From the NCBI RefSeq assembly GCF_026341125.1, contig NZ_JAPEOR010000001.1:744001-808000 (forward strand): a stretch of DNA of 64,000 nt, given 5' to 3'. Of this stretch, positions 28,755-47,481 are shown one piece after another (the stretch's first letter is position 1; each line of letters starts with the position of its first letter). The notes beneath the pieces are model-generated. The model ran no database searches and was not told the DNA's origin. It saw only the letters and a list, made by a program, of their open reading frames with translations. A program made the translations under genes and the position numbers. The DNA is from Streptomyces sp. NBC_01142 (GTDB lineage: Bacteria; Actinomycetota; Actinomycetes; Streptomycetales; Streptomycetaceae).

Positions 28755-29992
28755 CCACAGAGCAACGCCGGGTCGTACTCACCGGCTGCGGGGTGCTGTC
28801 CAGCATCGGCACCGGCGTCGCGGAGTTCACCGCGTCCCTGAAGGCCGGCCGGGTCGGCACCTCCGACATCACCGTCTTCGACACCGCCGGGTTCCCCGGC
28901 ACCCGAGGCCACCAGGTCCACGGCTTCGACGCGGCCGCCCGGCTGCGTACCGTACGGCCCGAAGAGATTGGGCGGGCCTCGCAGTTCTCGGCCGCGGCCG
29001 CCCGGATGGCGCTCGAGGACGCCGGACTGACCGAGGAACGGCTGCGCGAGCGGCGCGGCACCATCGTCATCGGTACCACCGACGGCGAGGTCGGCGAGCT
29101 CGACCTGCTCACCGAGTCGGCGCTCGCCATCGGGCTCAGCGCCTTCACAGGCCGTGCGATGTCGCGGACCGCCACCGGCAGCCTCGCGCTGAACATCGCC
29201 CGCGAACTGGGCCTGTCCGACGTCGAGACCAGCACCGTCGCCACCGCCTGCGCCGCCGGCAACTACGCCATCGGCAGCGGCTTCGACGCGGTGCGCAGCG
29301 GCGAGGCCGAGTGGGCGCTCGTCGGCGGCGCGGACGCGCTGAACCGCAAGACCTTCGCCGGTTTCTCGCGGCTCGGCCTGATCGCCCCGGACGAGTGCCG
29401 CCCCTTCGACTCCGAGCGCAAGGGCCTGCTCACCGGAGAGGGTGCGGGCCTGCTGCTCCTGGAGACCGAGGAGTCGGCCCTCGCCCGCGGCGCACACATC
29501 TACGCCGAAGTGCTCGGCTACGGCCTCAACTGCGACGCCGCGCACCCCACCGCACCCGAGGAGGACAGCGTCGCCCGCTGCATCCGCCTCGCCCTGCAGA
29601 ACGCCTCCGTCAAGCCCGAAGAGGTCGACCTGATCTCCGCGCACGGCACCGGCACACCGACGAACGACACCACCGAGATCGCCGCGATCCGCCAGGTGTT
29701 CGGGGACGAGGTGCCGCGCACCGTCGGCCTCAAGGCAATGATCGGACACACCATGGGCGCGGCGAGCGCGCTGGGCGCCATCGCCTCGGCGCTCGCGATC
29801 CGGCACGGCTTCATCCCGCCGACGGCCAACCACCGCACCACCGACCCGACGTGTGACGTGGATGTGGTGCCCAACGAGTCGATCGCCGCGGATGTGCGGA
29901 TCGTGCAGAACAACGGCCTCGCGTTCGGCGGCAACAACGCCGTCGTGCTGCTCGGCCGCCACCAGAACCCCCGAGGGGAGTACGCCCGATGA
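28751..29992 (+). CDS. Beta-ketoacyl-ACP synthase, KS-alpha (FabF-like)
   Basis: The 413-residue condensing enzyme has all three catalytic residues: Cys167 (VATACAAGN), His298 (SAHGTGTPTND) and His333 (KAMIGHTMGAASAL). It resembles FabF and the KS-alpha subunits of type II polyketide synthases. It overlaps the ACP gene and, by ATGA, the downstream partner lacking catalytic residues, as KS-alpha/KS-beta pairs do. It should elongate a short acyl chain on the ACP for the NRPS. No AT, KSIII, dehydratase or enoylreductase is encoded nearby, so those steps must come from primary metabolism or be skipped. Confidence 0.93.
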   Translation: MTTEQRRVVLTGCGVLSSIGTGVAEFTASLKAGRVGTSDITVFDTAGFPGTRGHQVHGFDAAARLRTVRPEEIGRASQFSAAAARMALEDAGLTEERLRERRGTIVIGTTDGEVGELDLLTESALAIGLSAFTGRAMSRTATGSLALNIARELGLSDVETSTVATACAAGNYAIGSGFDAVRSGEAEWALVGGADALNRKTFAGFSRLGLIAPDECRPFDSERKGLLTGEGAGLLLLETEESALARGAHIYAEVLGYGLNCDAAHPTAPEEDSVARCIRLALQNASVKPEEVDLISAHGTGTPTNDTTEIAAIRQVFGDEVPRTVGLKAMIGHTMGAASALGAIASALAIRHGFIPPTANHRTTDPTCDVDVVPNESIAADVRIVQNNGLAFGGNNAVVLLGRHQNPRGEYAR

Positions 29993-31083
29993 GCACCACC
30001 GCGGTCATCACTGCGTGGTCGGCGGTGTCGCCGTACGGCATCGGCAGTGAGGCACTGACCGACGGCCTGCGCTCGCGCACCGCTGTCGACCCCGTCCCGG
30101 CGCCCGAGGAGTGGCTGTCCGCCCCTTCCGCCACCGCTCGCATGGTGCCCGACTTCGACGTCCGCGAGGCGCTCGGCAAGGCCGGCACCCGCGGCATGGA
30201 CCGGATGACCGGACTGACGGCCGTGGCGGTACGGGAACTGCTCGGCGACGACGCGGGCGGCCCCGGCACCGGACTGGTCCTGGGCACCGCGTCCGGCAGC
30301 GTCCAGGGCTTCCTCGAGTTCACCAAGGCCTCGCTGGAGGGCGACCGGCCCATCGACGTACCGCCGTCGAAGGTCCCCAACATGGCCATGAACAGGGCGG
30401 CTTCGGCCAGTGCGATCCGCCACCACCTCAAGGGCCCGAACTCCACGGTCGCCGCCGGCCGGCTGTCCGGCCTGATAGCCCTCGCCCACGCCCGCAGGCT
30501 GCTGGCCGACGGCCGGGCGGAACGGGTGCTGTGCGGCTCGGTCGAGGAGTACTCCGCGACCCGCGCGCACCTGGCCCATCGTGCGTACGACGACGAGGCG
30601 GTCCTCGGCGAAGGCTGCGCGATGCTGCTGCTGGAGCACGCGGGCTCAGGACCGGGGGAGGCGCTCGCCGAAGTCCTGGCCGTACACCACCGGGTCGCTC
30701 TCACCGGTGACTTCGCGGAGGCCCTCACGGCCACCCTGCACACCGCGCTCGAAGCGGCGGCCGTCCGCCCCGACGAGGTCTGGGCGACGGCACCGGGAGG
30801 CGCACCGGGTCCGGCGGGCGAGCAGGAACAGCAGGTGCTCCAGGCCCTGTTCGACCCTGCCGTACGCAACCGGGTGCCTTCCCCGGCCCTGCTGGGCGAC
30901 ACGGCCGCGGCCACGGGAGCCTTCCAGATAGCCTCCCTGCTGGCGGCCCCGGCCGGAGCGGGCAGGATCGCGGTGATCACGGCGACGGACCCGGACGGCC
31001 CGGTGGGTGCGGCGGTGCTCAGGCTCCTGACGAACGGCACGCCCGCCAACGGCTCAGCCGACAGTGCGGACGGTGCCCGGTGA
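29989..31083 (+). CDS. KS-beta / chain-length-factor-like protein without catalytic residues
   Basis: The 364-residue protein follows the ketosynthase fold but is shorter than its partner. The active-site Cys is replaced by Arg158 (TVAAGRLSGL aligns with TVATACAAGN). No HGTGT motif is recognisable, and the GHTxGAA segment reads GDTAAATGAF with Asp for His. It therefore cannot condense by itself. In type II polyketide and aryl-polyene systems such subunits pair with KS-alpha and limit chain length. Gene order (ACP, KS, this, KR, all overlapping) supports that role. Arg is unusual at this position, where Gln is common. Confidence 0.85.
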   Translation: MSTTAVITAWSAVSPYGIGSEALTDGLRSRTAVDPVPAPEEWLSAPSATARMVPDFDVREALGKAGTRGMDRMTGLTAVAVRELLGDDAGGPGTGLVLGTASGSVQGFLEFTKASLEGDRPIDVPPSKVPNMAMNRAASASAIRHHLKGPNSTVAAGRLSGLIALAHARRLLADGRAERVLCGSVEEYSATRAHLAHRAYDDEAVLGEGCAMLLLEHAGSGPGEALAEVLAVHHRVALTGDFAEALTATLHTALEAAAVRPDEVWATAPGGAPGPAGEQEQQVLQALFDPAVRNRVPSPALLGDTAAATGAFQIASLLAAPAGAGRIAVITATDPDGPVGAAVLRLLTNGTPANGSADSADGAR

Positions 31084-31823
31084 GCGCCGACCACATCCGC
31101 CCCGTCGCCCTCATCAGCGGCGGATCCCGCGGTATCGGGCGGGCCGTCGCGTTGCGGCTCGCCGAGGACGGGTACGACATCTCCTTCTGCTACCGCGGCG
31201 ACGAGCAGGCGGCCGCCAACCCGGAGAAGGAGCTGACCGGCACCGGTGCCCGCTCCCTCGCCGTGCGCGTCGACGTCACCGACGCCGAGGGCGTGCGTGC
31301 CTGGGTGAGCCGTACGGAGAAGGACTTCGGGCCGATCGCGCTCGCCGTCACCTCCGCCGGCATCACCCGCGACAAGCCCCTGCTGATGATGTCCGACACG
31401 GAGTGGCACGAGGTCCTCGACACCAACCTGGACGGCGTCTACCACGTCTGCCGGGCCGTCGTCTTCCCCATGCTCAAGCGGCGGGCGGGCAGCATCGTCA
31501 CCGTCTCCTCGGTCGTGGGGCTGCAGGGCAACGCGGGCCAGACCAACTACGCGGCTTCCAAGGCCGGGATCGTCGCGTTCTCCCGCTCCCTCGCCAAGGA
31601 GGTCGGCCGGCGCGGCATCCGCGTCAACGCGGTGGCGCCCGGCCTGATCGACACCGACATGTCGGCCGCCCTCGACGACTCGGTCAAGGACCAGGTCGCC
31701 GAGCGCACCGCGCTCGGCCGGGCGGGCCTTGCCACCGAAGTCGCCGACGCGGTGGCCTTCCTGGCCTCCGGCCGCGCCACCTACATCACGGGCGCGGTCC
31801 TCCCGGTGGACGGAGGCCTGTGA
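31080..31823 (+). CDS. 3-oxoacyl-ACP reductase (FabG-like ketoreductase)
   Basis: The 247-residue short-chain dehydrogenase has the NADPH motif GGSRGIGRAVA, the catalytic Ser in VSSVVGLQGN, Tyr/Lys in TNYAASKAG, and the FabG end YITGAVLPVDGGL. It starts with GTG overlapping the KS-beta stop. It should reduce the beta-keto group formed by the KS pair to a beta-hydroxyacyl-ACP. As no dehydratase is present in the cluster, the acyl starter may stay 3-hydroxylated or be dehydrated by a housekeeping enzyme. Confidence 0.92.
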   Translation: MSADHIRPVALISGGSRGIGRAVALRLAEDGYDISFCYRGDEQAAANPEKELTGTGARSLAVRVDVTDAEGVRAWVSRTEKDFGPIALAVTSAGITRDKPLLMMSDTEWHEVLDTNLDGVYHVCRAVVFPMLKRRAGSIVTVSSVVGLQGNAGQTNYAASKAGIVAFSRSLAKEVGRRGIRVNAVAPGLIDTDMSAALDDSVKDQVAERTALGRAGLATEVADAVAFLASGRATYITGAVLPVDGGL

Positions 31824-35987: not shown

Positions 35988-36638
35988 TCAGGGCTCGTCG
36001 CACTCCTTCCACGCGAGCCGGTAGACGGTGTTGATCTCACCGTCGGTCGAGTCCATGGTCATGAAGCTGGTCGTCTTCTTCGGGTCCGAGGTCCCGGCGT
36101 TGACGCGTATCTCGGTGTTGATGTTGAAGTTCCGCTTGACCCCGCACGGGGCCCAGACCAGCTGGCCCCACTCGGTGGTGTCGGTCGCCTGCCAGTTGTC
36201 GTCGACCGGGCCTGTGAACGGATGGTTTCTGGACGCGGTGTCCGGAGAGCCCTGGAAGTAGTACGACGCCCTCTGCGACGCCGTGGCGCCGGACTGCAGG
36301 CTGGCATAGCCGCGGTAGTCGGCGCTGGCGACCGCGTAGGTGAAGCCCTGCGGGACATGCACGACGAGGTTGAGCTGACAGTTCTTCCGGAAGTCGGTCG
36401 CCCCGGCGCCCACGCCCACCTTGGCGAGGTAGTCGCTGTAGGTCACGGTGAAGGCCGTGTTGTCCTCGGACACGGCGATGGCGGCGGTCCCTTGGCGGCA
36501 CCCCGACCCGTTGACCGTCGCGATGTCGATCGTGATTTTGTCCGGGGGCGCGATGCTGACCGCGGAAGCGTTCTGAGCGGCGAGCAGCGAAGCGATAATC
36601 GCCGCTGTCGCGCCGCCCGCGAGAAGTGCACGGGACAT
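35988..36638 (-). CDS. DUF4360 secreted protein
   Basis: A 216-residue exported protein. The signal peptide is about residues 1-26 (LLAGGATAAIIASLLAAQNA ending SAV). The mature part matches the DUF4360 pattern: VNGSGCRQGTAAIAVSEDNT, FTVTYSDY, KNCQLNLVVHVPQGFTYAV and a late WAPCGVKRNFNINTEIRV. Four conserved Cys probably form two disulfides. The family is widespread in actinobacteria and fungi and has no known biochemical role. The gene is monocistronic; the upstream region holds a GGTCATG/CATGACC inverted repeat at 36679-36699. Confidence 0.9.
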   Translation of the reverse strand: MSRALLAGGATAAIIASLLAAQNASAVSIAPPDKITIDIATVNGSGCRQGTAAIAVSEDNTAFTVTYSDYLAKVGVGAGATDFRKNCQLNLVVHVPQGFTYAVASADYRGYASLQSGATASQRASYYFQGSPDTASRNHPFTGPVDDNWQATDTTEWGQLVWAPCGVKRNFNINTEIRVNAGTSDPKKTTSFMTMDSTDGEINTVYRLAWKECDEP

Positions 36639-37228
36639 GATTCTCCCATCGGGGAAATCTGAGGGGTCATCCGGAACAGGTCATGAAAAAGCCATGACCA
36701 TGTCAACCTTTCAAATATCTGAGCGGTTATTCGAAGGGCCGGATCGAGGGGAATCGTAGGCGGCGGGCGCGGAGGTTGGACAGTCCGTTATCGGCCGTGT
36801 GAAGGCGGCGTGAAGAAGGGGGCACGGTCTCCCCACAGCGGGACGTGCTCACAACGAGCTCACAACGACGGACGCCTGCGACGCCTTCAATGCCTGCTGA
36901 TGCGGCTCCCGGCCCGAGCCGGCCGGCGCGCTCGGCGCCGCATCACGGCGGTCGCGGACAGCGGCATCGCCCGGACCGCGCCTCACCACTGCTTCGACGG
37001 GTGGAGCGGGCGGACCGCCGTCTCGATCACTTCACGCCCTCGACTCCTGCGCTGTGATCCCCGGCCGCGGAGCTCCCGCAAGCGCCGTTCGCCGTTCGTC
37101 GCCCTCCGTGAACCGCCGCTGTTCTGACGCCTCGATCCGGCGGTCAGGCCCGAGCCGGCCGCAGGAGACGAGCCGTAATGCCTGGTGGAGAGGCCGCCGT
37201 GACTGCCAACCGGTCGCGTGACCGTGGG
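36639..37228. other. Intergenic region without a supported gene
   Basis: About 590 bp. Near 36660-36760 the sequence is AT-richer than its surroundings and probably holds the DUF4360 promoter; a perfect 7-bp inverted repeat GGTCATG/CATGACC spaced by 7 bases lies at 36679-36699. Open frames at 36810-37127 and on the other strand lack ribosome-binding sites and biased codon use and are not called. Confidence 0.5.
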
Positions 37229-37429
37229 CGCCGTGGAACTCGAATCCACCTGAATATCGAACCAGCCTATTAATCATCCACCGAGTCCCCAGAATTATGA
37301 ATGAAGGCCGAATGGGTGAATATAGATGCTGGGGCTGCTCTCGATTCGCAATCACGGTTTGGGCTGGGATACAAAGGTGAACGTTGCAGCCGGGCAATCC
37401 GGCTGGAACGCGAACGAAAGGAATGCAGG

Positions 37430-37672
37430 ATGTCTGCCGTTAACTTTGAGGAACTCAACAACCTCACGGGCGAGATGCTGCCCGAGCGTGCCGTGCTCTC
37501 CGCCTTCGGCCTGGGTGGCGACTACGGTTTCGAGGGTGGCAACGGTGGCCCCAACGGTGCCATCGTTTCGACCTGCACGGCGAGCTCCGGGTCGCCGCTG
37601 CTCATCGCTGGCCTGCCGGTCGGGTCGTACTACAGCTCCGTGACCTGCACCCCTTCCACGGTGGCCTTCTGA
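37430..37672 (+). CDS. Candidate ribosomal peptide precursor 1 (two-Cys, leader plus Gly-rich hinge)
   Basis: An 80-residue peptide with start ATG 37430 and AAAGGAATGCAGG upstream. It has no classical signal peptide. The N-terminal ~30 residues (MSAVNFEELNNLTGEMLPER, then AVLSAFGLGG) are almost identical to the second copy and look like a leader. A Gly-rich hinge follows (about 29-42), then a C-terminal core starting AIVSTC and ending GSYYSSVTCTPSTVAF, with two Cys 24 residues apart. Differences between copies concentrate in hinge and core, the pattern of RiPP precursors. I found no LanM/LanB-like or radical enzyme nearby; an M50 metalloprotease and a VKOR protein follow. A small self-exported structural peptide is the alternative. 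Confidence 0.7.
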   Translation: MSAVNFEELNNLTGEMLPERAVLSAFGLGGDYGFEGGNGGPNGAIVSTCTASSGSPLLIAGLPVGSYYSSVTCTPSTVAF

Positions 37673-37702
37673 GGTAACACTTGGTGGCAGTTGACCACCA
37701 TG

Positions 37703-37744
37703 AGTCGGGGAAGTGCTGACAATCGTGTCGGTGCTTCCCCGACT
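37703..37744 (+). terminator. Hairpin after precursor-like gene 1
   Basis: AGTCGGGGAAG (37703-37713) pairs perfectly with CTTCCCCGACT (37734-37744), followed by TTC. The second unit has the same hairpin at 38301-38343. Confidence 0.85.
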
Positions 37745-38034
37745 TTCATATGGGCGCCATGCGCGTAACGCTTCCCTGGGCAGGTCATAGCCGCCCTGAA
37801 GGGCCGGCACCTACTTGATGCTCTGGTGGAAAAGGCTCACTGGCACTCGAATCCACCTGAAGATCGAACCGGCTCATTAATCGCTCGCCGGCCCCGACGC
37901 CATGGGGGGGAGGCTGAATGGGTGAACATTGATGCTGTGACTGCTCTGGATTCGCCATCACGGTTTGGCTGCGATACAAAGGCTTACGTTCCAGCCGGGC
38001 CATCCGTCTGGGGCATGGAACGAAAGGAAACAGG

Positions 38035-38271
38035 ATGTCTGCGGTTAACTTTGAGGAACTCAACAACCTCACGGGCGAGCTGCTGCCCGAGCGTGCCGTG
38101 CTCTCCGCCTTCGGTCTGGGCGGCGGCTTCGGTGGCGACGGTGGCCACGGCGGCGGCGCCATCGTGTCGGCCTGCGCGGTGCAGTCCGGGTCGCCGGAGA
38201 TCATCGCTGGCCTGCCGATCGGGTCGTACTACAGCTCCGTGACCTGCACCCCCGCCGCGGTGATCTTCTAG
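38035..38271 (+). CDS. Candidate ribosomal peptide precursor 2 (two-Cys, leader plus Gly-rich hinge)
   Basis: A 78-residue paralogue of the previous peptide, start ATG 38035 after GAAAGGAAACAGG. The leader differs from copy 1 by one residue (Met to Leu at position 16). The hinge is shorter and more Gly-rich (GGGFGGDGGHGGG). The core starts AIVSAC and ends GSYYSSVTCTPAAVIF; both Cys and the IAGLP(V/I)GSYYSSVTCTP block are conserved. Two similar cores side by side could be a two-component peptide or a product family. It is followed by a hairpin and then the M50-type metalloprotease gene. Confidence 0.7.
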   Translation: MSAVNFEELNNLTGELLPERAVLSAFGLGGGFGGDGGHGGGAIVSACAVQSGSPEIIAGLPIGSYYSSVTCTPAAVIF

Positions 38272-38300
38272 GAACCACCTGGTGGCAGCAGACCATCATG

Positions 38301-38343
38301 AGTCGGGGAAGGGCTGGCAAATTCTGTCGGCGCTTCCCCGACT
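38301..38343 (+). terminator. Hairpin after precursor-like gene 2
   Basis: AGTCGGGGAAG (38301-38311) pairs with CTTCCCCGACT (38333-38343), the same element as at 37703-37744. It may attenuate rather than stop transcription into the metalloprotease gene. Confidence 0.85.
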
Positions 38344-38482
38344 TTCATATGGGCGCCCAGTGAGGTGCGTTTCCGATGCGCTGTGATCGGTCTTTCCGGG
38401 CCGGACTTCTCAGGAATTGCCGCTCTTGCTGGTTCTGCCGGGCTTCTTGTGTAACCAGGAGAACCCCACACTCGTTCATCTG

Positions 38483-40345
38483 ATGAAGGCTTCGGCGCCC
38501 TGCACCTGCCGCATCACCCGCATCCCTCTGGAGAGCACCATCAGCCCGCGAGTGTCGTCACCTGTGACAGTAAAATCCCGTCCATCCACCTTTTCGGTGC
38601 CCAGACTGACCGAAGGGACGGAGCTGGTCGGCGAGTTCGAAGGCTCCGGATACCGGGAGCCTCCCCAACTGGTCCGCCGCTTCGACGGACAGGTGGTCCG
38701 TCTACCGGAATTGTTGTACCTGCTTGCCAGGCTTACCCAAATCCAGCAGCAGTCGAACGCGATTCCGCAGAGCGCCCAGCAATACTTGTCCTGGCTGTCG
38801 GACGCCTTGAGCCGGGAAACCGGCCGTGAATTCGAGCCGAGCCACATTGTCTTCCTCATTGACAAGAAGCTGGCGCCCCTGGGCGTCACCACCTACAGTG
38901 ACGGCTCGCCTCCAGAAATCACCAAGGCCAACCCATTTCTTGCGCTGCGATTCCGGAAAGCCGTTTTCTCCGAGTCCGCATCCTGGAGCATCAGCGGCCT
39001 CTTCACCTGGCTGTTCCGTCCCGTCGTGATGCTATTGGCCGTCGGCGCTTTCGTATTCTGCGAGTCCTTGCTGTTCAGCAGCAGGAGCATGGCATCCGCA
39101 CTGCAACAGGCTCTCGTGACGCCCGCCAGCATCCTGCTGGTCGTCCTTCTGACCCTGGTCTCCTCCGCCTTCCACGAGATCGGTCACGCCGCCGCGTGCC
39201 GTTCCAGCGGGGCGCGTCCGGGAGCCATGGGGTGCGGCATCTATTTGGTGTGGCCCGCTTTCTACACCGACGTCACGGACTCGTACCGGTTGGGGCGCGC
39301 AGGTCGTCTGCGGGTCGATCTCGGAGGCGTCTACTTCAACGCATTGTTCATCGTCGGCCTCAGCTTCGCGTACCTCGCGACCGGCTGGTACGTGCTGTTG
39401 GTGGCGATTTTGGCCATCAACCTCGAAATCGTTCAGCAGCTCATTCCGTCGCTCCGGTTCGACGGGTACTACATCATCTCCGACCTGGTCGGCATCCCCG
39501 ATCTGTTCAAGTACATCGGGCCGATCCTGAAACGTGCCCTGCTCCGCCGGCCGGCCGACGAGAGTCTTCTGGCCCTCAAGCGCTGGCCCCAGGTCGTCGT
39601 CACCGTCTGGGTGCTGTGCGTCGTCCCTGCCCTGGCGATCCAGCTGGGCATCCTGATCGTCCGGGTCCCGGATCTCGTCAGGACCGGCTGGCACACCGTC
39701 GGAGCGCTCGCCGGGAGTGCCACCACATCGGGCAATCCAGTGCTGGGAGTCCTCTCCGCCGGCGTCCAGATCCTGTTGCTGCTTCTCCCCGTGGCCGGCG
39801 CCGTGATCATCGTGCTGCAACTGGTGCGGGGAGCCGTCCGCTTCGTTCGCAAGCGCCTGGGCGTCACCAGCGGCAAGCACGGACGCCGCCCGCCGTACTT
39901 GTTGTGGGGCGTTGTCATCATTCTGGCTCTCGCGCTCGCCGGGCTGACCTGGGGAATCACTCGGTCGGCGCACCAGCCGGCGTACCCCGTCGGCGGGCCG
40001 CCGATGCCCAGTACGGCCGAATCGAGTTCGCCGTCCGATACCTCTGCCCCGACCTCGGAGCCCGACCGACCCGCTGCCGTCGTACCTGTGCACCGGCCCA
40101 CCCCCGCGCCCACTGTCGCTCAATCGCCCCCGCCCGCCACGGACGGCTCCCGGCCCGTCGCTCGACAGGGGACCGGGCATGACGCGCCGACGGGTGCCCC
40201 GGGCACCAGCCTGCCCCCCAGTCCCGCCACCTCCGCCCCCGAGGACAGCGGCACACCTCAACCCGAGCCGTCGAAGAGTCCGCCGTGCGCGCTACGTCTG
40301 AACAACCTCCCCGTGCTGGAAGTCATCAGCGTGTCGTGTGACTGA
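38483..40345 (+). CDS. M50-type membrane metalloprotease with possible peptide-binding N-terminal domain
   Basis: ATG 38483 is a plausible start (620 residues); the frame is open from TTG 38417 and a later start near 38550 is possible. The N-terminal ~170 residues (VRRFDGQVVRLPELLYLLAR and on) recall the PqqD/RRE-like winged domain that binds leader peptides in related M50 proteins. Then come membrane helices with the zinc motif HEIGHA (His231, Glu232, His235) and the second-half motif RFDGYYIISDL (Asp327). After about six further helices there is a Pro/Ser/Thr-rich extracytoplasmic tail ending in a 20-residue segment with two Cys (CALRLNNL to SVSCD). It probably cleaves or exports the adjacent precursor peptides; this is inferred from order and domain architecture. 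Confidence 0.8.
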   Translation: MKASAPCTCRITRIPLESTISPRVSSPVTVKSRPSTFSVPRLTEGTELVGEFEGSGYREPPQLVRRFDGQVVRLPELLYLLARLTQIQQQSNAIPQSAQQYLSWLSDALSRETGREFEPSHIVFLIDKKLAPLGVTTYSDGSPPEITKANPFLALRFRKAVFSESASWSISGLFTWLFRPVVMLLAVGAFVFCESLLFSSRSMASALQQALVTPASILLVVLLTLVSSAFHEIGHAAACRSSGARPGAMGCGIYLVWPAFYTDVTDSYRLGRAGRLRVDLGGVYFNALFIVGLSFAYLATGWYVLLVAILAINLEIVQQLIPSLRFDGYYIISDLVGIPDLFKYIGPILKRALLRRPADESLLALKRWPQVVVTVWVLCVVPALAIQLGILIVRVPDLVRTGWHTVGALAGSATTSGNPVLGVLSAGVQILLLLLPVAGAVIIVLQLVRGAVRFVRKRLGVTSGKHGRRPPYLLWGVVIILALALAGLTWGITRSAHQPAYPVGGPPMPSTAESSSPSDTSAPTSEPDRPAAVVPVHRPTPAPTVAQSPPPATDGSRPVARQGTGHDAPTGAPGTSLPPSPATSAPEDSGTPQPEPSKSPPCALRLNNLPVLEVISVSCD

Positions 40346-40349
40346 GACC

Positions 40350-40382
40350 GAGGGCCGGCCGGTCAGGGGCCGGCCGGCCCTC
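40350..40382 (+). terminator. Hairpin after the metalloprotease gene
   Basis: GAGGGCCGGCCGG (40350-40362) pairs perfectly with CCGGCCGGCCCTC (40370-40382) across a 7-base loop, starting 4 bp after the stop codon. Confidence 0.85.
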
Positions 40383-40470
40383 CGAACCGCTCTGCCCGCG
40401 CGGCCGTGGAGAACCAGGGCCGCACGGGCAGGAGTGCCGACCCGTTCGCATCAATCCGTCGCATGCGAAA

Positions 40471-40503
40471 TCGGCGGAAGGCCTGGAGGAGGCCTTCCGC
40501 CGA
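40471..40503. repeat. Perfect 13-bp inverted repeat
   Basis: TCGGCGGAAGGCC (40471-40483) and GGCCTTCCGCCGA (40491-40503) with a 7-base loop. It has no T-run and lies about 250 bp before the VKOR gene. It may be a second terminator or an operator. Confidence 0.7.
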
Positions 40504-40758
40504 CGGGACGGACCGATGTCTCCGGGTGCGCCGTGCCAACAAGGAGGCGCGACTGCCCTACGACGCGATGCGTCGCCGGCTGGAGGCGTGCACCCGGAGC
40601 ACATCTCGTGCACGGTCTGCTCGACTATTTCATCATCCCCGGGCGGCCGCCGAGCGCCATATTCATCCATTTGCCGAATCGACTCAGCGGAACCGGAGTA
40701 ATTCCCCATTGGGGCACAATGAGGGCGTCCAGCACGCAACCGAAGGTGTGAGAACGAT

Positions 40759-41400
40759 ATGACAATTACGGCAGTCGGGCGTGTGTCCGTCGAGCGCGAG
40801 AGGGGGCGGCGGGCCGAAAGAAAGAATGTCGGTGGCAGTCGTGCCTTTGCCTGGTTGCTGGTGGTCACGGGCGCGGCGGGTCTGCTGGCCGCGTGGGTCA
40901 TCACGATCGACAAGATCAAGCTGGCGGAGGACCCGACGTTCAAGCCGGGGTGCAGCCTGAACCCCATTGTGTCGTGCGGCAACATCATGACCAGCGATCA
41001 GGCGTCGGCGTTCGGGTTCCCGAACCCGATGCTGGGTCTGGTGACGTACGCGATGGTGATCGCCATCGGTGTCGGTGTTCTCGCGGGTGCCCGCTACCGC
41101 CGCTGGTTCTGGCTCGGTCTCAACGCCGGCACGTTCTTCGGTGTCGGCTTCTGCACCTGGCTCCAGTACCAGTCGCTCTACAACATCAACTCGCTGTGCC
41201 TGTGGTGCTGTCTGGCCTGGGTCGCCACGATCGTGATGTTCTGCTACGTCACCCTGCACAACATCGAGCACCGGATCATCAAGGTCCCCGAGGGCCTGCG
41301 CAACGGACTGCTGGAGTTCCACTGGATGCCGCCGGTGCTGTGGACCGGGACCATCGGGATGCTGATCCTGACCCGCTGGTGGGACTTCTGGACCAGCTGA
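40759..41400 (+). CDS. Vitamin K epoxide reductase (VKOR) family protein
   Basis: A 213-residue membrane protein with start ATG 40759 and AAGGTG upstream. It has the bacterial VKOR layout: about five helices, a loop Cys pair (Cys65 and Cys73, GCSLNPIVSCG) and the quinone-side CxxC (Cys147 and Cys150 in SLCLWCCLAW). VKOR proteins form disulfides in exported proteins, normally via a DsbA-like or fused thioredoxin partner, and pass electrons to quinone. No fused thioredoxin is present. It follows the two-Cys peptide genes and the metalloprotease, so it might oxidise those peptides. It could equally be the general housekeeping VKOR, since it has its own upstream region and terminators on both sides. 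Confidence 0.93.
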   Translation: MTITAVGRVSVERERGRRAERKNVGGSRAFAWLLVVTGAAGLLAAWVITIDKIKLAEDPTFKPGCSLNPIVSCGNIMTSDQASAFGFPNPMLGLVTYAMVIAIGVGVLAGARYRRWFWLGLNAGTFFGVGFCTWLQYQSLYNINSLCLWCCLAWVATIVMFCYVTLHNIEHRIIKVPEGLRNGLLEFHWMPPVLWTGTIGMLILTRWWDFWTS

Positions 41401-41851: not shown

Positions 41852-42275
41852 CTTTTCGATTCCCTTTCCCCGGTGGCGTTCGTCGCCGCCGTCGACTTGA
41901 TAACGAGCCCTGGCCGTAGGGGAAACCCCTGCTCCCAAGGGCTGTGCCGACGCCACACCAACGTAGGGATGCGGAGATTCTCGTATCATCTGCTTTGTGG
42001 CCGAACGCCTTTGCATACTTCGGGTGTTCACATGCCGTGGCGGTCATCCTGACACCTCCCGCGCGCGGTCGGCGGTGAGCTGTGTGAGATCACCGGATGG
42101 GCTATTCCAGAAATGCACCGGTCCGATGTCCAGCAGGCAGTAGCGGGATGGGGAGACCGGTGTATTCGGGTGACCTCCAGATGGCGGTACGAGCGAGTCT
42201 GACGTGATTTCCAACTATCTTTCTGACACGGTGCACTCCTGTTGTGTCACGTTGATCGACCATGGAGAGCAACTC

Positions 42276-43367
42276 ATGTCGAAGTCGGTGGGATTCACCA
42301 CGCGCGGGGTCCTGGGCGCAATGGTCTGCCTGGCGCTCACGGTCGCTCCAATTCCGGCCACGGCTGCCCCGGCCGCACCGGAATCATCCAGAATTCCATT
42401 CAAGCAGCGCTACCGGGCCACGTACCACGGGGGCATCGTCCGGGCCGCCAACTCCGCGATCACCTGCCGGTCGCCGAAATCCTCCGCGGCCGCTTCGTGT
42501 TCCGCCGTCAAGAAGGGCGCCGCAGGTGCCAACAGTGACTTCGACATGTTCTATGTCGACGTCGACGACGACCCGAACACCTACAACTCGAGCCGTGCCC
42601 AGCTGGCCGTCCCGAAGAATTCACGGGTGCGCTACGCGCGTCTGTACTGGGGCGGGAATCTGCGGGTCGGTGAGCAGAAGCCGCCCAAGGACAACGGCCG
42701 GATCCTGATCGCCGAACCGGGCGGTGAGTACAAGGAAGTCCTCGCGGACACCCGCGTCGCCCACCGTGACGCCGACGGCAGCGACGCGTTCCAGGCCTCG
42801 GCCGATGTCACCCCCCTGGTGCGCCGGAGTGGTTCGGGCCTGTACACCGTGGCCCAGATCAATGTGGCGATGGGGCATTCGAAGGTCGGCTCGTGGGGCG
42901 GCTGGACGCTTGTCGTCGCGTACGAGAACAGCCGGGAACCGAAGCGCCACCTAGCGATCTGGGACGGCTTCGAGACGCTGAATGCCGCCCGGAAGAACCA
43001 TTCCCTGACCGTGAAGGGTCTACGTATTCCGGCGAGAGCGGGCGGACGTGCCGGTTTCGTTTCGTACGACGGCGACCGCGGTCTGCGTGACGGGGCAAGC
43101 GTCCGGGCCGGAAACCGCAAGCCCGTCGCCCTCACCAACAGTGCCAACCCGGCCAATGACGCGATGAATTCCACCATCACCGATGTAAAGCGCCCCGGCA
43201 TCAAGCGACAGCCCTCGTATGTGAATACGCTCGGGTACGACTCCGACGTATTCGACATCAAGCGGGCCCTGACATCGGGCGGCGGTTCCTTGACCTTCCG
43301 GTTCAGCGCCGAAAGCCGCGGGTATTTTCTGGGCGCTCTCTTCCTGCAGGCAGACTCTCGCCGCTGA
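42276..43367 (+). CDS. DUF3344-like secreted protein
   Basis: A 363-residue exported protein with start ATG 42276 after GGAGAGC; the frame extends upstream without a site. The signal peptide ends near APIPATAAPA (about residue 33). The mature domain contains SRVRYARLYWGGNLRVG, DVTPLVRRSGSGLYTVA, WGGWTLVVAYEN, LAIWDGFETL and the closing FRFSAESRGYFLGALFLQ, the pattern of DUF3344-type surface proteins, predicted beta-rich and lectin-like. Two Cys near the N-terminus (TCRSP and SCSAV) probably pair. No function is known. It lies just upstream of the exopolysaccharide genes, and a surface role would fit both neighbours. Confidence 0.75.
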   Translation: MSKSVGFTTRGVLGAMVCLALTVAPIPATAAPAAPESSRIPFKQRYRATYHGGIVRAANSAITCRSPKSSAAASCSAVKKGAAGANSDFDMFYVDVDDDPNTYNSSRAQLAVPKNSRVRYARLYWGGNLRVGEQKPPKDNGRILIAEPGGEYKEVLADTRVAHRDADGSDAFQASADVTPLVRRSGSGLYTVAQINVAMGHSKVGSWGGWTLVVAYENSREPKRHLAIWDGFETLNAARKNHSLTVKGLRIPARAGGRAGFVSYDGDRGLRDGASVRAGNRKPVALTNSANPANDAMNSTITDVKRPGIKRQPSYVNTLGYDSDVFDIKRALTSGGGSLTFRFSAESRGYFLGALFLQADSRR

Positions 43368-43430
43368 TTCTCCGAGTCGGCGCTGCTCGCCCGAGCAAGG
43401 TCTACAGTCCACGTACGAAGAGAGCCGCAC

Positions 43431-44615
43431 GTGCCGCAAAGAAGTTGGGCTGGGAAGAGTGAACTGACGGTATTTCATCTGGTGCAACCGGTGGAAGGGG
43501 GAGTCGCACGCGTCGTCACCGACCTGGTCCGGGCCCAGGTTGCCGAGGGCTTCCGCACGGTCGTGGCCTGTCCGCCGGGCGGGGTGCTGGCGGCGGACGC
43601 CGCCGAGGCCGGCGCACGCGTGCACCCCTGGCCCGCCGTTCGCGCACCCGGCCCCCGGCTGGCCGGGGAGGTCCTGACCGCGGCCAGGCTGATCCGCCGT
43701 ACCGAGCCGCACGTGGTGCACGCGCACAGCGCCAAGGCCGGATTGGCCGCACGCCTCGCCGTACGGGGACGGGTCCCCACCGTCTTTCAGCCGCACGCCT
43801 GGTCCTTCGAGGCGGTGGAGGGGCGTGCGGCCGCGCTGGCTCTGAAGTGGGAGCGGTACGGGACCCGTTGGAGCACCCGGACCCTCTGTGTCAGTGAGAC
43901 AGAGCGCCGGGTGGGGGAGCAGGCCGGCATCGCCGCCCGCTGGTCGGTGATCCGTAACGGAGTCGATCTCCAGCACTTCGCAGGCGACGACGGAACGGCC
44001 CGCCCTGCCGCCGCCCGTGCCGTCCTGCCGATGCTGAAGCGGATCCCGCCCGAGGTACCCCTCGTGGTCTGTGTGGGCCGTCTGTGCCGGCAGAAAGGGC
44101 AGGACATTCTGCTGACGGCTTGGCCGCAGGTGACCGCGGCCGTCCCCGATGCCCGGCTGGTGCTCGTCGGGGACGGGCCCGACAGGGAGGAGCTGATACG
44201 GCTCACCCCACCGGGCGTGCTGTTCGCGGGGGCGAGCAGGGACCCGCGGCAGTGGTACCGCGCGGCGGACGTCGTCGTACTCCCGTCGCGCTGGGAGGGC
44301 ATGGCCCTGGCCCCCCTTGAGGCGATGGCCTGCGGGCGGCCGGTCGTGCTGAGCGATGTCAGCGGAGCCGGGGAGAGCCTGCCCCCCGGCCACGAGGCCT
44401 TCGGACTCGTACCGGCCGACGACCCGCCGGCCCTCGCCGCGGCACTGACCGTGCTGCTGACCAACCGCGCACTACGCGACCGTCTGGGCCGCACGGCGCG
44501 GGATCACACCAGGGCGACCTGCGACGTACGGCAGACCACCGCAGCCGTCTCCGGCCTCTACCAGGAACTTCTGAACTCGCCCCAACCCATGACGAGGAAG
44601 CGCACCGAGCGATGA
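43431..44615 (+). CDS. Glycosyltransferase, GT4 type
   Basis: A 394-residue GT-B fold enzyme starting at GTG 43431. The N-terminal domain has the family's EGGVARVV glycine-rich motif and HVVHAHSAKAGL. The C-terminal domain has VGRLCRQKGQDILL, the nucleotide-binding LVGDGPDREEL, and the donor-binding LPSRWEGMALAPLEAMACG with the EX7E glutamates. GT4 enzymes transfer a sugar from a nucleotide donor with retention, here presumably to a lipid-linked exopolysaccharide repeat on the cytoplasmic face. It is the first gene of a tightly packed plus-strand run reaching 52953. Confidence 0.92.
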   Translation: MPQRSWAGKSELTVFHLVQPVEGGVARVVTDLVRAQVAEGFRTVVACPPGGVLAADAAEAGARVHPWPAVRAPGPRLAGEVLTAARLIRRTEPHVVHAHSAKAGLAARLAVRGRVPTVFQPHAWSFEAVEGRAAALALKWERYGTRWSTRTLCVSETERRVGEQAGIAARWSVIRNGVDLQHFAGDDGTARPAAARAVLPMLKRIPPEVPLVVCVGRLCRQKGQDILLTAWPQVTAAVPDARLVLVGDGPDREELIRLTPPGVLFAGASRDPRQWYRAADVVVLPSRWEGMALAPLEAMACGRPVVLSDVSGAGESLPPGHEAFGLVPADDPPALAAALTVLLTNRALRDRLGRTARDHTRATCDVRQTTAAVSGLYQELLNSPQPMTRKRTER

Positions 44616-46117
44616 CGACGGAGAGTGCACCAGCGCCCCATACCTCCCAGGCAACAGCCGTGCATCGCTCGGCTTCCTCGATCCATCCGCCACGGAGCGT
44701 CGTCCGCCGCGGGACCGCTCCCCCCGGCCCGCACGGGATCAGCTGGCGCGGATCCGTCATGGGCCTGCCAGCCGCCGGCCTCTTCGCCGCCGACCTGCTC
44801 GCCGTGGCACTCGCCCTCTCCCTGGTGCCCGGAGTGCACTGGCCACAGCTTGCCTTCGCCCTGCTCGCCGCGGTCCTGTCGGTGCTGCACACCTACCGCG
44901 GGCTCTACCGGCCGGGCCTGTCCCCTTCCGCGCTCGGCGAACTTCCCGCGCTGCTTGGCCTGGGGTTGTTGCAGTGGTACGGCACCGCGGAAGTCCTCAC
45001 CGCATACGACTCCCGCTACGCCGTCGACGGGACGGCCCTGGCCTGCGCGATCGTCGTCCAGTCGCTGCTCGCCTGCACGGGACGGGCCGTAGTACACCTG
45101 ACGCGCCGCGCCTGCGCCGCCCGCCGGCCGCAGCCGGCTCTCGTCGTGGGCCGGGGACCGGTCGCCCAGCAGGTCACCGCCGCCCTGTACGACCACGCCG
45201 GGTACGGACTGCGGCCGGTGGGCCAGGTCGACCCCGGCCACGTAGACCCCGGCCACGTCGTACCGCAGCCGGACACCGCACAACTGCCCGTCCTCGCCAC
45301 CCCGGAGGACGTCAGCCGCGCGGTCATCCAGAACGACGTCCGGCATGCCGTCTTCACCCGGCCGCCCGAATCGGCCCCCGAAGCCGCCGCGCTCGTCGGA
45401 CTGTTCGCCGAGCACGGCTGCCGGCTGTGGCTGGTCGACGGCGGCGCGGCGGAGGGGATCACCCACCGGCGGGTGCAGGGAACCGACCACCTGTGGGGAT
45501 TCGCCGTACAGCCCCTGCACAGCGGACCCCACCAGCCGTTCGCCCGGACCGGCAAGCGGGCCATGGACGCCGTGCTCGCCGCCGCCGCCCTGCTGGTGGC
45601 CGCGCCCGTGATGGCCGTCTGCGCACTCGCCGTACGGCTCTTCGACGGGCCCGGCGTCATCTTCCGGCAGGAGCGCATCGGCCTGGACGGACGGCCCTTC
45701 GTCCTCCTGAAGTTCCGTACGCTCTGCCCCGTCGACGAGCACGAGTCCGCCACGCGCTGGAGCGTCGCCCTCGACCGGCGGATGAGCTTCACCGGCAATC
45801 TGCTGCGCCGGACCTCGCTGGACGAGCTGCCGCAGCTGTGGAACGTGCTGCGCGGCGACATGAGCCTGGTCGGACCGCGGCCCGAACGCCCCTACTTCGT
45901 CGCCAAGTTCAGCCACGCCCACCCCGGCTACCAGGCCCGTCACCGGATGCCCGTCGGCATCACGGGACTCGCCCAGGTGAACGGGTTGCGCGGTGACACC
46001 TCGATCGAGGACCGCGCCCGCTTCGACAACCACTACATCGAGACCTGGTCGCTCTGGCAGGACGTGTGCATCCTCGCGCGCACCGCCGGTTCCCTGTTCC
46101 GGTTCGGAGGCAGCTGA
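44612..46117 (+). CDS. Undecaprenyl-phosphate sugar phosphotransferase (initiating PGT)
   Basis: A 501-residue polyprenyl glycosylphosphotransferase overlapping the previous gene (ATGA). The N-terminal half has about four membrane helices and a Rossmann-like domain (LVVGRGPVAQQV). The C-terminal half is the catalytic bacterial sugar-transferase domain: KRAMDAVLAAAALL, FRQERIGLDGRPFVLLKFRT, RRTSLDELPQLWNVLRGDMS, VGPRPERP and TGLAQVNGLRG. This enzyme type loads the first sugar-phosphate onto undecaprenyl phosphate and so starts the repeat unit. The sugar cannot be told from the sequence. Confidence 0.95.
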   Translation: MTTESAPAPHTSQATAVHRSASSIHPPRSVVRRGTAPPGPHGISWRGSVMGLPAAGLFAADLLAVALALSLVPGVHWPQLAFALLAAVLSVLHTYRGLYRPGLSPSALGELPALLGLGLLQWYGTAEVLTAYDSRYAVDGTALACAIVVQSLLACTGRAVVHLTRRACAARRPQPALVVGRGPVAQQVTAALYDHAGYGLRPVGQVDPGHVDPGHVVPQPDTAQLPVLATPEDVSRAVIQNDVRHAVFTRPPESAPEAAALVGLFAEHGCRLWLVDGGAAEGITHRRVQGTDHLWGFAVQPLHSGPHQPFARTGKRAMDAVLAAAALLVAAPVMAVCALAVRLFDGPGVIFRQERIGLDGRPFVLLKFRTLCPVDEHESATRWSVALDRRMSFTGNLLRRTSLDELPQLWNVLRGDMSLVGPRPERPYFVAKFSHAHPGYQARHRMPVGITGLAQVNGLRGDTSIEDRARFDNHYIETWSLWQDVCILARTAGSLFRFGGS

Positions 46118-46119
46118 GC

Positions 46120-47481
46120 ATGACCGTCACCTGGGGCGCCGCATCCGCCGCGCCCGCAGTGCCGCGCACCCGCCCGGGACAGTGGGGGGCCGGCCGGTGG
46201 CCGCTGCTGCCACTGATGGCGACCGTGCTGCTGCTCGCGGCTCCGCTCCCGGCGATGAGCGGGGCCGGCTGGGGCGGCGTGGTGCCGGCCGATGTGGCGT
46301 CGGGCGTGCTGGTGGCCTGCTGTCTGGCGCTCGTACTGCACCGCAGGGCGCGGCCGCTGACCCCGGCGGCCGCCCTCGTTTTCGGCATCCCCGCGGTCGG
46401 TTTCGCCGTGGCCACGATCACCGCGGCCGATCCGGCGGCGGGAGTGCCGGGGTTCGTGCGCTATCTGCAGGTGTTCGTCCTGGTGCCGGTCGCGGTCGTC
46501 CTCGTGATCCGTGACGCCCAGGGCTTCCGTATCGTTACCGGGTGCCTCGTCGCACTCGCGCTGGTGCAGGGCGGGCTGGGTGTCCACCAGTACGCGACAG
46601 GCACGGGCGCCTCCTACATGGGCGCGGACATCCGGGCCGTCGGCACCTTCGGCCCCACCGACGTCATGGGTATGGCGACGGTCGTCGCATACGGACTGCT
46701 CGCGGCCACCGCCGTCGCGCTGCGTACACCCCATGGCGCGCCCCGCCGGCTGCGGCCCTGCGCGATCGCAGCCGCCGCGGCGCTGGTCGTGCCACTGGCG
46801 CTGTCCTTCAGCCGCGGCTCGTGGATCGCCACCGCGGTCGCCACCCTTGCCGTGATCCTGCTGGCCGGACTGCGCCAGGCCGTGCGCGCCCTGGTGGTCC
46901 TCGCCGCCGTGGCCGTCGTTCTCGTCGGAGGCCTCGGCATCGGTTCCCAGATGATCTCCGAGCGGCTCAGCAGCATCACCCAGGTCGCCGAGACGCCCGA
47001 CCAGTCGGTCACCGACAGGTACACGATGTGGGCCGCGGCGGCGAGCATGTGGCGCGAGGAGCCCGTGACCGGAGTCGGCCTCAAGGGCTACCCCGCCCAC
47101 CGCGACGGGCACGTGTCGATCGGGCTCTCGGCGGGCAGCAACACGGCGGGCGCGGGCCGCGCCTTCCAGAAGCAGCCGCTGCTCTCGCCGCACAACATGT
47201 ATCTCCTCGTGCTCAGCGAGCAGGGGCTCATCGGGGTCACCGCGTTCGTCGGCAGCTGGGCGGCCGTGCTGACCGGCGGAGTGCGCCGGATGGTCCGCGC
47301 GAGGCGGCGGCGCGAGGCGGCGGCCGACTGCGGACTCGTGGCCGTCGGCCTGATGCTCTGGCAGACGATCGACTTCCTGTACGCGGACATCGGCGGTCCG
47401 TCGACGGTTCTGACCGGGGTCGTGCTGGGCCTCGGGGCGTGGTGGGCGCTGGCGGATCCGGACGGGGCGAGCGCTGCGTGA
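46120..47481 (+). CDS. O-antigen ligase/polymerase (Wzy/WaaL-like) membrane protein
   Basis: A 453-residue protein with start ATG 46120, 2 bp after the previous gene and a GGAGG within it. It has about ten to twelve membrane helices and the ligase-family stretches ALSFSRGSWIATAVATL and, after a long outer loop, SPHNMYLLVLSEQGLIGV (the conserved H-N-x-x-L motif). Such proteins polymerise or transfer lipid-linked repeats outside the membrane. Together with the flippase and Wzz-like gene it suggests a Wzx/Wzy-type exopolysaccharide pathway. The stop overlaps the next gene's GTG. Confidence 0.9.
   Translation: MTVTWGAASAAPAVPRTRPGQWGAGRWPLLPLMATVLLLAAPLPAMSGAGWGGVVPADVASGVLVACCLALVLHRRARPLTPAAALVFGIPAVGFAVATITAADPAAGVPGFVRYLQVFVLVPVAVVLVIRDAQGFRIVTGCLVALALVQGGLGVHQYATGTGASYMGADIRAVGTFGPTDVMGMATVVAYGLLAATAVALRTPHGAPRRLRPCAIAAAAALVVPLALSFSRGSWIATAVATLAVILLAGLRQAVRALVVLAAVAVVLVGGLGIGSQMISERLSSITQVAETPDQSVTDRYTMWAAAASMWREEPVTGVGLKGYPAHRDGHVSIGLSAGSNTAGAGRAFQKQPLLSPHNMYLLVLSEQGLIGVTAFVGSWAAVLTGGVRRMVRARRRREAAADCGLVAVGLMLWQTIDFLYADIGGPSTVLTGVVLGLGAWWALADPDGASAA

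Follow-up and report, generated by a model that had tools for sequence, protein, structure and literature searches.

Tandem two-cysteine precursor genes and an RRE-like membrane protease gene in Streptomyces: a candidate two-part route of leader-guided peptide maturation

Which of the genes clustered between positions 37,229 and 41,400 of a 64,000-nucleotide stretch of Streptomyces sp. NBC_01142 (the window; contig NZ_JAPEOR010000001.1, positions 744,001 to 808,000) belong to one peptide pathway, and what would that pathway do? Two short tandem genes there encode similar peptides, A and B, with two Cys residues each, and are followed by the gene of an M50-type membrane metalloprotease and then by a VKOR gene. 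A preliminary description made from the letters alone took these genes for a minimal pathway in which the protease removes a leader and VKOR closes the Cys-Cys bond. From a comparison of related loci we conclude that precursors and protease probably form a unit of two parts in which a leader guides peptide maturation without modification, with a surface or secreted product, and that VKOR belongs with the polysaccharide locus next to it. Below, genomes carry G numbers (the window's, of 10.1 Mb, is G000) and fetched loci carry L numbers.

Tandem precursors and their protease

As first described, the peptide genes form two duplicated units. The tandem duplication measures about 600 bases, and each unit has a 5' flank and a 3' hairpin of its own (Table 1). 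The flanks are recognisable as repeat pairs at 37227-37275/37834-37882 (84% identical) and 37305-37362/37911-37968 (88% identical); the region holds five matches to a terminator pattern, with 3.3 expected from shuffles. The first 27 codons of A and B differ at three codons and one residue and the last 40 at 14 codons, corresponding to dN 0.017 and dS 0.107 for the leader and dN 0.179 and dS 0.138 for the core, a pattern that, with few changes underlying these figures, is consistent with a fixed leader and a core free to vary. No Pfam or NCBIfam family matched either peptide with a useful score, and no third copy was found in G000 at E ≤ 0.01.

A protein database search (E ≤ 0.01) returned 16 proteins, the window's two and 14 further homologues, those named by organism being from Streptomyces. 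Their alignment has 33 invariant columns, with a leader MxAVNFEE...GE.LPERAVLSAF followed by VS.C, and a second Cys flanked by GLP.G and CTP. We refer to these peptides as type 1. In a survey of 392 Streptomyces genomes the peptide was matched in 15 (E ≤ 0.001), of which one match (G218) is weak and probably false, and an Actinomadura locus (L006) has four copies. When peptides were collected with a profile built from the type-1 leaders, without filtering for the two Cys, 38 of 39 had exactly two Cys after the leader, and the 39th (L030:9153) is interrupted by a stop. Spacing between the two Cys ranges from 12 to 29 residues and is mostly 23 or 27, and the second Cys is followed by 7 to 9 residues; the hinge between leader and core is variable (5-67 residues, 32% Gly), and the C-terminal residue is F, H, R, S, G, K or Y. 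The near-invariant N terminus, Gly-rich hinge and two-Cys core of the preliminary description, and its division into leader and core, agree with both the codon contrast and the homologues. Since 14 further homologues exist and the Cys pair is kept in 38 of the 39, the reading frame is real, and such strict conservation makes it likely that the pair forms a disulfide. The interrupted peptide is the second type-1 frame of its locus (L030:9153-9320, in G228), in which a TAG codon precedes the Cys pair.

We compared 21 loci, the window and 20 fetched stretches of 16-18 kb (L003, L004, L006, L030-L046). L005 was set aside (it is from the genome of L031), L035, the second terminal-repeat copy in G129, was left out of peptide counts and tree, and L046 was kept with a weak, probably false peptide match (E 6.7e-4) and no M50 gene. 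The M50 cluster was present in 19 of the 21, and the peptide in 18 by gene caller and in 20 after tblastn and the leader profile had added L033 and L044. The next commonest clusters occurred in five loci, all with one common chromosomal flank, and no third gene common to more than five of the 21 was found. Two loci lack an M50 gene: L046, where the leader profile detects no peptide, and L032, where the peptide is an orphan with further copies elsewhere in its genome. The cassettes stand in unrelated sites, among them a linear plasmid of S. changanensis (NZ_CP102333.1) and both terminal regions of G129 (L034/L035), and those of G000 and G228 adjoin polysaccharide genes. The protease behaved in the same way when used as the query: 54 of the 392 Streptomyces genomes matched (E ≤ 1e-30), their scores fell into two groups, and all 14 genomes of the upper group (491-929 bits) have the peptide. 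The co-occurrence of peptide and protease expected by the preliminary description was thus observed from both sides. G129 carries, besides the cassettes near its two chromosome ends, a third cassette (L044) and the orphan peptide (L032).

Alignment to L031 favours the GTG at 38597 as the start of the protease. The protein contains HEIGH (residues 193-197), FDG (288-290), seven hydrophobic segments and two Cys in its C-terminal tail, and its HExxH and DG motifs lie inside a predicted membrane core of the site-2 protease (S2P) fold, so that the M50 assignment stands. Its N-terminal region is predicted to fold as a winged helix of three strands followed by three helices, resembling solved recognition elements (RREs) of ribosomally synthesized and post-translationally modified peptide (RiPP) systems, with lasso B1 as the best match; these predictions support an RRE-like domain on an M50-type protease, as had been proposed, and the two folds and the topology, with the two-Cys tail outside the cell, are likewise supported by prediction. 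A search of PDB sequences with a profile of A3 gave five matches at E ≤ 10, with no RRE or protease among them, and Foldseek with the 430-residue model gave a best E of 4.5.

Table 1. Features of the peptide unit and the gene that follows it (window coordinates)
Feature	Coordinates	Strand	Basis
Unit 1 5' flank, copied upstream of unit 2	37227..37429	+	direct repeats D3 and D6, 84-88% identical
Precursor peptide A, 80 aa: leader, Gly-rich hinge, two-Cys core	37430..37672	+	open reading frame, homologues, alignment
Terminator-like hairpin 3' of peptide A	37703..37744	+	inverted repeat I2; terminator-pattern match
Unit 2 5' flank	37834..38034	+	repeats D1, D3, D6
Precursor peptide B, 78 aa	38035..38271	+	open reading frame, homologues, alignment
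Hairpin 3' of peptide B	38301..38343	+	inverted repeat I3
RRE-like/site-2-protease-like membrane metalloprotease, 582 aa	38597..40345	+	NCBIfam daptide_HExxH, models, fold matches, hydropathy
N-terminal RRE-like domain, residues 1-103	38597..38905	+	predicted structure
Predicted extracellular Pro/Ser/Thr-rich tail, two-Cys motif at end	39968..40342	+	homologue tails, hydropathy
VKOR, gene of the adjoining polysaccharide locus, outside the peptide unit	40759..41400	+	PF07884 E 5.7e-41; synteny

The VKOR gene

The gene after the protease is indeed a VKOR gene (Table 1), and the preliminary description made its product the dedicated oxidase of the peptide. Among the 21 type-1 loci, VKOR adjoins the cassette in two: in the window it follows the M50 gene at 0.4 kb, and in L030 it precedes the peptide by 0.8 kb. 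A back-of-envelope estimate assuming 1.6 VKOR genes per 8.5 Mb gives a chance adjacency of about 0.001 per locus. The two VKOR genes also lie in different parts of the VKOR tree, the window's being 89% identical to the second copy of G000 and grouped with it (97/97). Against a dedicated role, the peptides mostly occur with no VKOR gene alongside, no match was found in the 6-13.5 kb stretches of 21 loci of a sister protease (type 3, below), and 97 of the 101 Streptomyces genomes sampled have a VKOR gene. Of the refuting outcomes named in the preliminary description, peptides that mostly occur without VKOR were thus observed, and peptides that mostly occur without M50 were not. All 14 cassette genomes have a VKOR gene; 12 have it solely away from the cassette or on a different contig. 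At a cassette-free site in G129, a VKOR gene stands next to homologues of the polysaccharide genes that the window has at 42546-47481, and by hand count it lies within 7 kb of a DUF3344-like gene in 19 of the 32 genomes of G001-G090 that have that gene, none of which carries a type-1 cassette; in the other 13, VKOR is elsewhere or on another contig in 12 and absent in one. Because VKOR adjoins the polysaccharide genes in cassette-free genomes, it belongs with that locus, which explains the adjacency in the window, and we regard a minimal protease-plus-VKOR pathway as highly improbable. A convergent recruitment of VKOR at the window and L030, considered because the two genes stand apart in the tree, was dropped after this synteny had been seen in G129. 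For genome mining, the case cautions against taking a VKOR gene for a pathway member on the ground of its adjacency to a peptide gene.

The window's polysaccharide locus spans 42204-47481 and encodes a DUF3344-like secreted protein, a glycosyltransferase, a sugar transferase and a Wzy-like protein; in Streptomyces, VKOR is a recurrent neighbour of this locus.

Sister proteases, precursors and protease tails

The lower-scoring M50 group of the Streptomyces survey (271-299 bits, 38-43% identical, 50 places) accompanies a different peptide, type 3. We took 21 such loci, 20 of the 50 places (L089, L107-L125) and a plasmid record (L100), and each has one to three short open reading frames near the M50 gene with the pattern ELEAESAELLPGREALGKLKFSF...NESLAxN..SP.AVAQS.A.Q.I.I.Q. 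Among the 37 peptides counted, 27 have no Cys and ten have one. In a sample across the phylum, 37 of 396 genomes had an M50 match (E ≤ 1e-10), of which 26 places outside the type-1 genomes reached E < 1e-50. Of these we fetched 20, and leader-type peptides were found in 12. These comprise type-2 precursors, which are Cys-less repeats (NANVAAPVNAAVAANVLSDDSVAYANAEQ), two loci with chaplin-like cores (L097 and L098, type 4), the type-3 locus L089, and the singletons L091 and L095. No leader peptide was found in the other eight; seven of them group in a single clade, and L092 falls among the type-2 loci. The system is accordingly wider than first described: the part concerning precursor and M50 protease holds, and sister proteases adjoin precursors that lack a Cys pair.

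In a FastTree tree of 59 M50 proteins, whose midpoint root lies on the type-1 branch, all 19 type-1 loci stand together (1.0 on the branch's other half, stem 0.49), as do all 21 type-3 loci (1.0) and both type-4 loci (1.0), and the type-2 loci occupy one part together with L092, so that protease clades largely track the type of peptide. Profile comparison related type-2 and type-3 cores (hhalign P 4.7e-5) and type-4 cores, weakly, to a chaplin (P 2.5e-4, from profiles of two type-4 sequences and one chaplin sequence); the type-1 core was kin to none of the core types compared.

The seven proteases of the peptide-less clade (L081, L083, L085, L088, L090, L094, L096) are RRE-M50-like and mostly have long Pro/Ser/Thr or acidic tails. 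The type-4 peptides (L097:7342-7707 and L098:7336-7620) are leader-bearing and chaplin-like and lie by an RRE-M50 gene, L097 alone matching ChpA-C at E 0.03, below the cut-off. A second small family beside type-2 precursors (L087:1804-2064, L086:8328-8555, L082:5212-5376 and L079:3830-3991; such as NVAGDVNAAVTANVGE...SRQRIVQRNG) has no leader and is similar to the type-2 core region.

The two-Cys tail of the window's protease is shared by some of its closest relatives. In clade A, the best 120 (at least 55% identity) of at least 4795 homologues at E ≤ 1e-20, 115 proteins were parsed, and 30 of them have a tail of at least 80 residues. In 23 of these long tails, the window's among them, two Cys flank a short LPL/LPV-like stretch at the end, and none of the 75 short clade-A proteins (<480 aa) has such an end. 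Among the fetched type-1 loci only the window and L033 have such a tail, so that the protease of most two-Cys peptides lacks this two-Cys end. It was found in none of the 21 type-3 and none of the 19 other phylum-wide M50 proteins, most of which have long Pro/Ser/Thr or acidic tails; among these 40, four tails leave the contig (L084, L087, L093, L107) and L082 has masked bases. Two clade-A proteins (P0036 and P0081, by Pfam labels) carry a fused MauE/DoxX-like domain, MauE being a redox-associated membrane protein. Where a Cys pair or redox domain is present on the protease, it accompanies a product with a Cys pair, the proteins being related and not independent, and this pattern hints at extracellular thiol chemistry.

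Proposed maturation and product, and relation to known systems

The leader/core layout, the conserved pairing, the Cys conservation and the broad match of protease clades to peptide types can be read from the sequences; for leader binding, cleavage and its site, export, the disulfide and function we infer the following. The common front end of the precursors, about 25 residues with NFEELNNLxGExLPERAVLS, would serve as a recognition leader, which the cytosolic RRE-like domain would bind while passing the chain to the site-2-protease-type active site. The cut that removes the leader would be made in the membrane or at it, probably close to the conserved L-S/M-G step right after LPER, and the Gly-rich hinge and two-Cys core would be released to the cell exterior, where general oxidases would close the Cys pair; in some relatives the two-Cys protease tail or the fused MauE/DoxX-like domain may assist oxidation. 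The product would be an abundant surface or secreted peptide. Precedents exist in the daptide peptidase, whose leader removal is RRE-dependent according to the daptide study (PMC10036551), and in EpeP, an M50 protease that matures the antimicrobial EpeX and is thought to combine cleavage and export (PMC10885120).

That second precedent also speaks for an antimicrobial role of the type-1 products, as bacteriocins, and so does the occurrence of several tandem variants, with cores that differ, at a locus. However, no immunity or export gene is common to most of the 21 loci, and the sister families could be surface proteins, judging from the thin evidence of the type-4/chaplin and type-2/type-3 profile matches. 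We rank a surface or structural peptide somewhat above an antimicrobial one, the latter being a possible, rather doubtful reading.

A different reading is that the protease belongs to a daptide or epipeptide pathway whose modifying enzymes are encoded elsewhere, the unit being an incomplete cluster of a known RiPP. The best NCBIfam families of the protease are daptide_HExxH (NF041824, E 1.9e-24) and YydH/LiaK (1e-11), and in relatives of the protease the daptide match reaches into the N-terminal region. As with MpaP of the daptides, the protease would be an RRE-dependent intramembrane peptidase with a fused RRE, and daptide clusters likewise have several short precursors with a conserved leader and occur mainly in Actinomycetota (PMC10036551). 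The epipeptide proteases YydH/EpeP/LiaK resemble it as M50-type leader proteases. But the scores are 86.5 bits against a cut-off of 300 for the daptide family and 45 against 225 for YydH/LiaK, and the genes that would complete either pathway are not part of the cassette. The DUF-RRE protein, Fe-dependent alcohol dehydrogenase, aminotransferase and methyltransferase of daptides are not common across loci, and no daptide oxidative decarboxylase, aminotransferase or methyltransferase, nor any other RiPP-modifying enzyme, was found among the 16 window proteins scanned with Pfam, in keeping with the preliminary description, a short-chain dehydrogenase (31080-31823) being placed with ketosynthases 6 kb away; a radical SAM epimerase and an ABC transporter are not fixed parts either, since no third gene is common across loci. 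Finally, the type-1 cores have a Cys pair and varied last residues, in place of the C-terminal Thr that daptides require according to the daptide study (PMC10036551). An incomplete known cluster is therefore improbable: the protease is a distant relative of the daptide proteases, and the unit lacks the features that mark daptides and epipeptides, although the RRE-family lists of that study may include these proteases (PMC10036551).

Two other known systems resemble the two-part unit in single respects. In lasso peptide pathways an RRE (B1) also passes the leader to a peptidase (B2), as proposed here, whereas our protease is a membrane metalloprotease and a cyclase is not a fixed part. The chaplins ChpA-C are likewise small Streptomyces peptides with a Cys pair, and the type-4 relatives are weakly similar to them; chaplins have a signal peptide, in place of which the type-1 peptides have a leader and a private protease. 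Neither window peptide matched ChpA-C at E ≤ 1, and no kinship of the type-1 core with chaplins was found (hhalign P 0.05 over nine columns, with a chaplin profile of a single sequence). In the open-licence texts searched, the leader strings did not occur and no description of the peptide-protease unit was found, an account elsewhere being possible.

RRE domains are taken as a hallmark of peptide modification pathways. Here an RRE-like domain is repeatedly found fused to a membrane protease in the company of leader peptides, with no modifying enzyme as a constant partner, and leader recognition may therefore serve plain proteolysis and export. The private pairing, and protease clades that follow the core type, make it testable whether an intramembrane protease provides surface peptides with a route independent of signal peptides. 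Tentatively, and with less confidence than for the type-1 unit itself, Actinomycetota might hold a general modification-free route of leader-guided export and maturation for surface peptides, in which one RRE-protease scaffold with its own clades would serve unlike cores (two-Cys, Cys-less repeat, the related type 3 and chaplin-like) and, in part of the two-Cys clade, a stalked two-Cys tip of the protease would pair with, template or oxidise the product.

Upstream of the peptide genes, two ketosynthase-like proteins and a ketoreductase (28793-31823) form a small polyketide or fatty-acid-like set, and a DUF4360 secreted protein (PF14273, E 1.9e-71) is encoded on the minus strand at 35988-36638.
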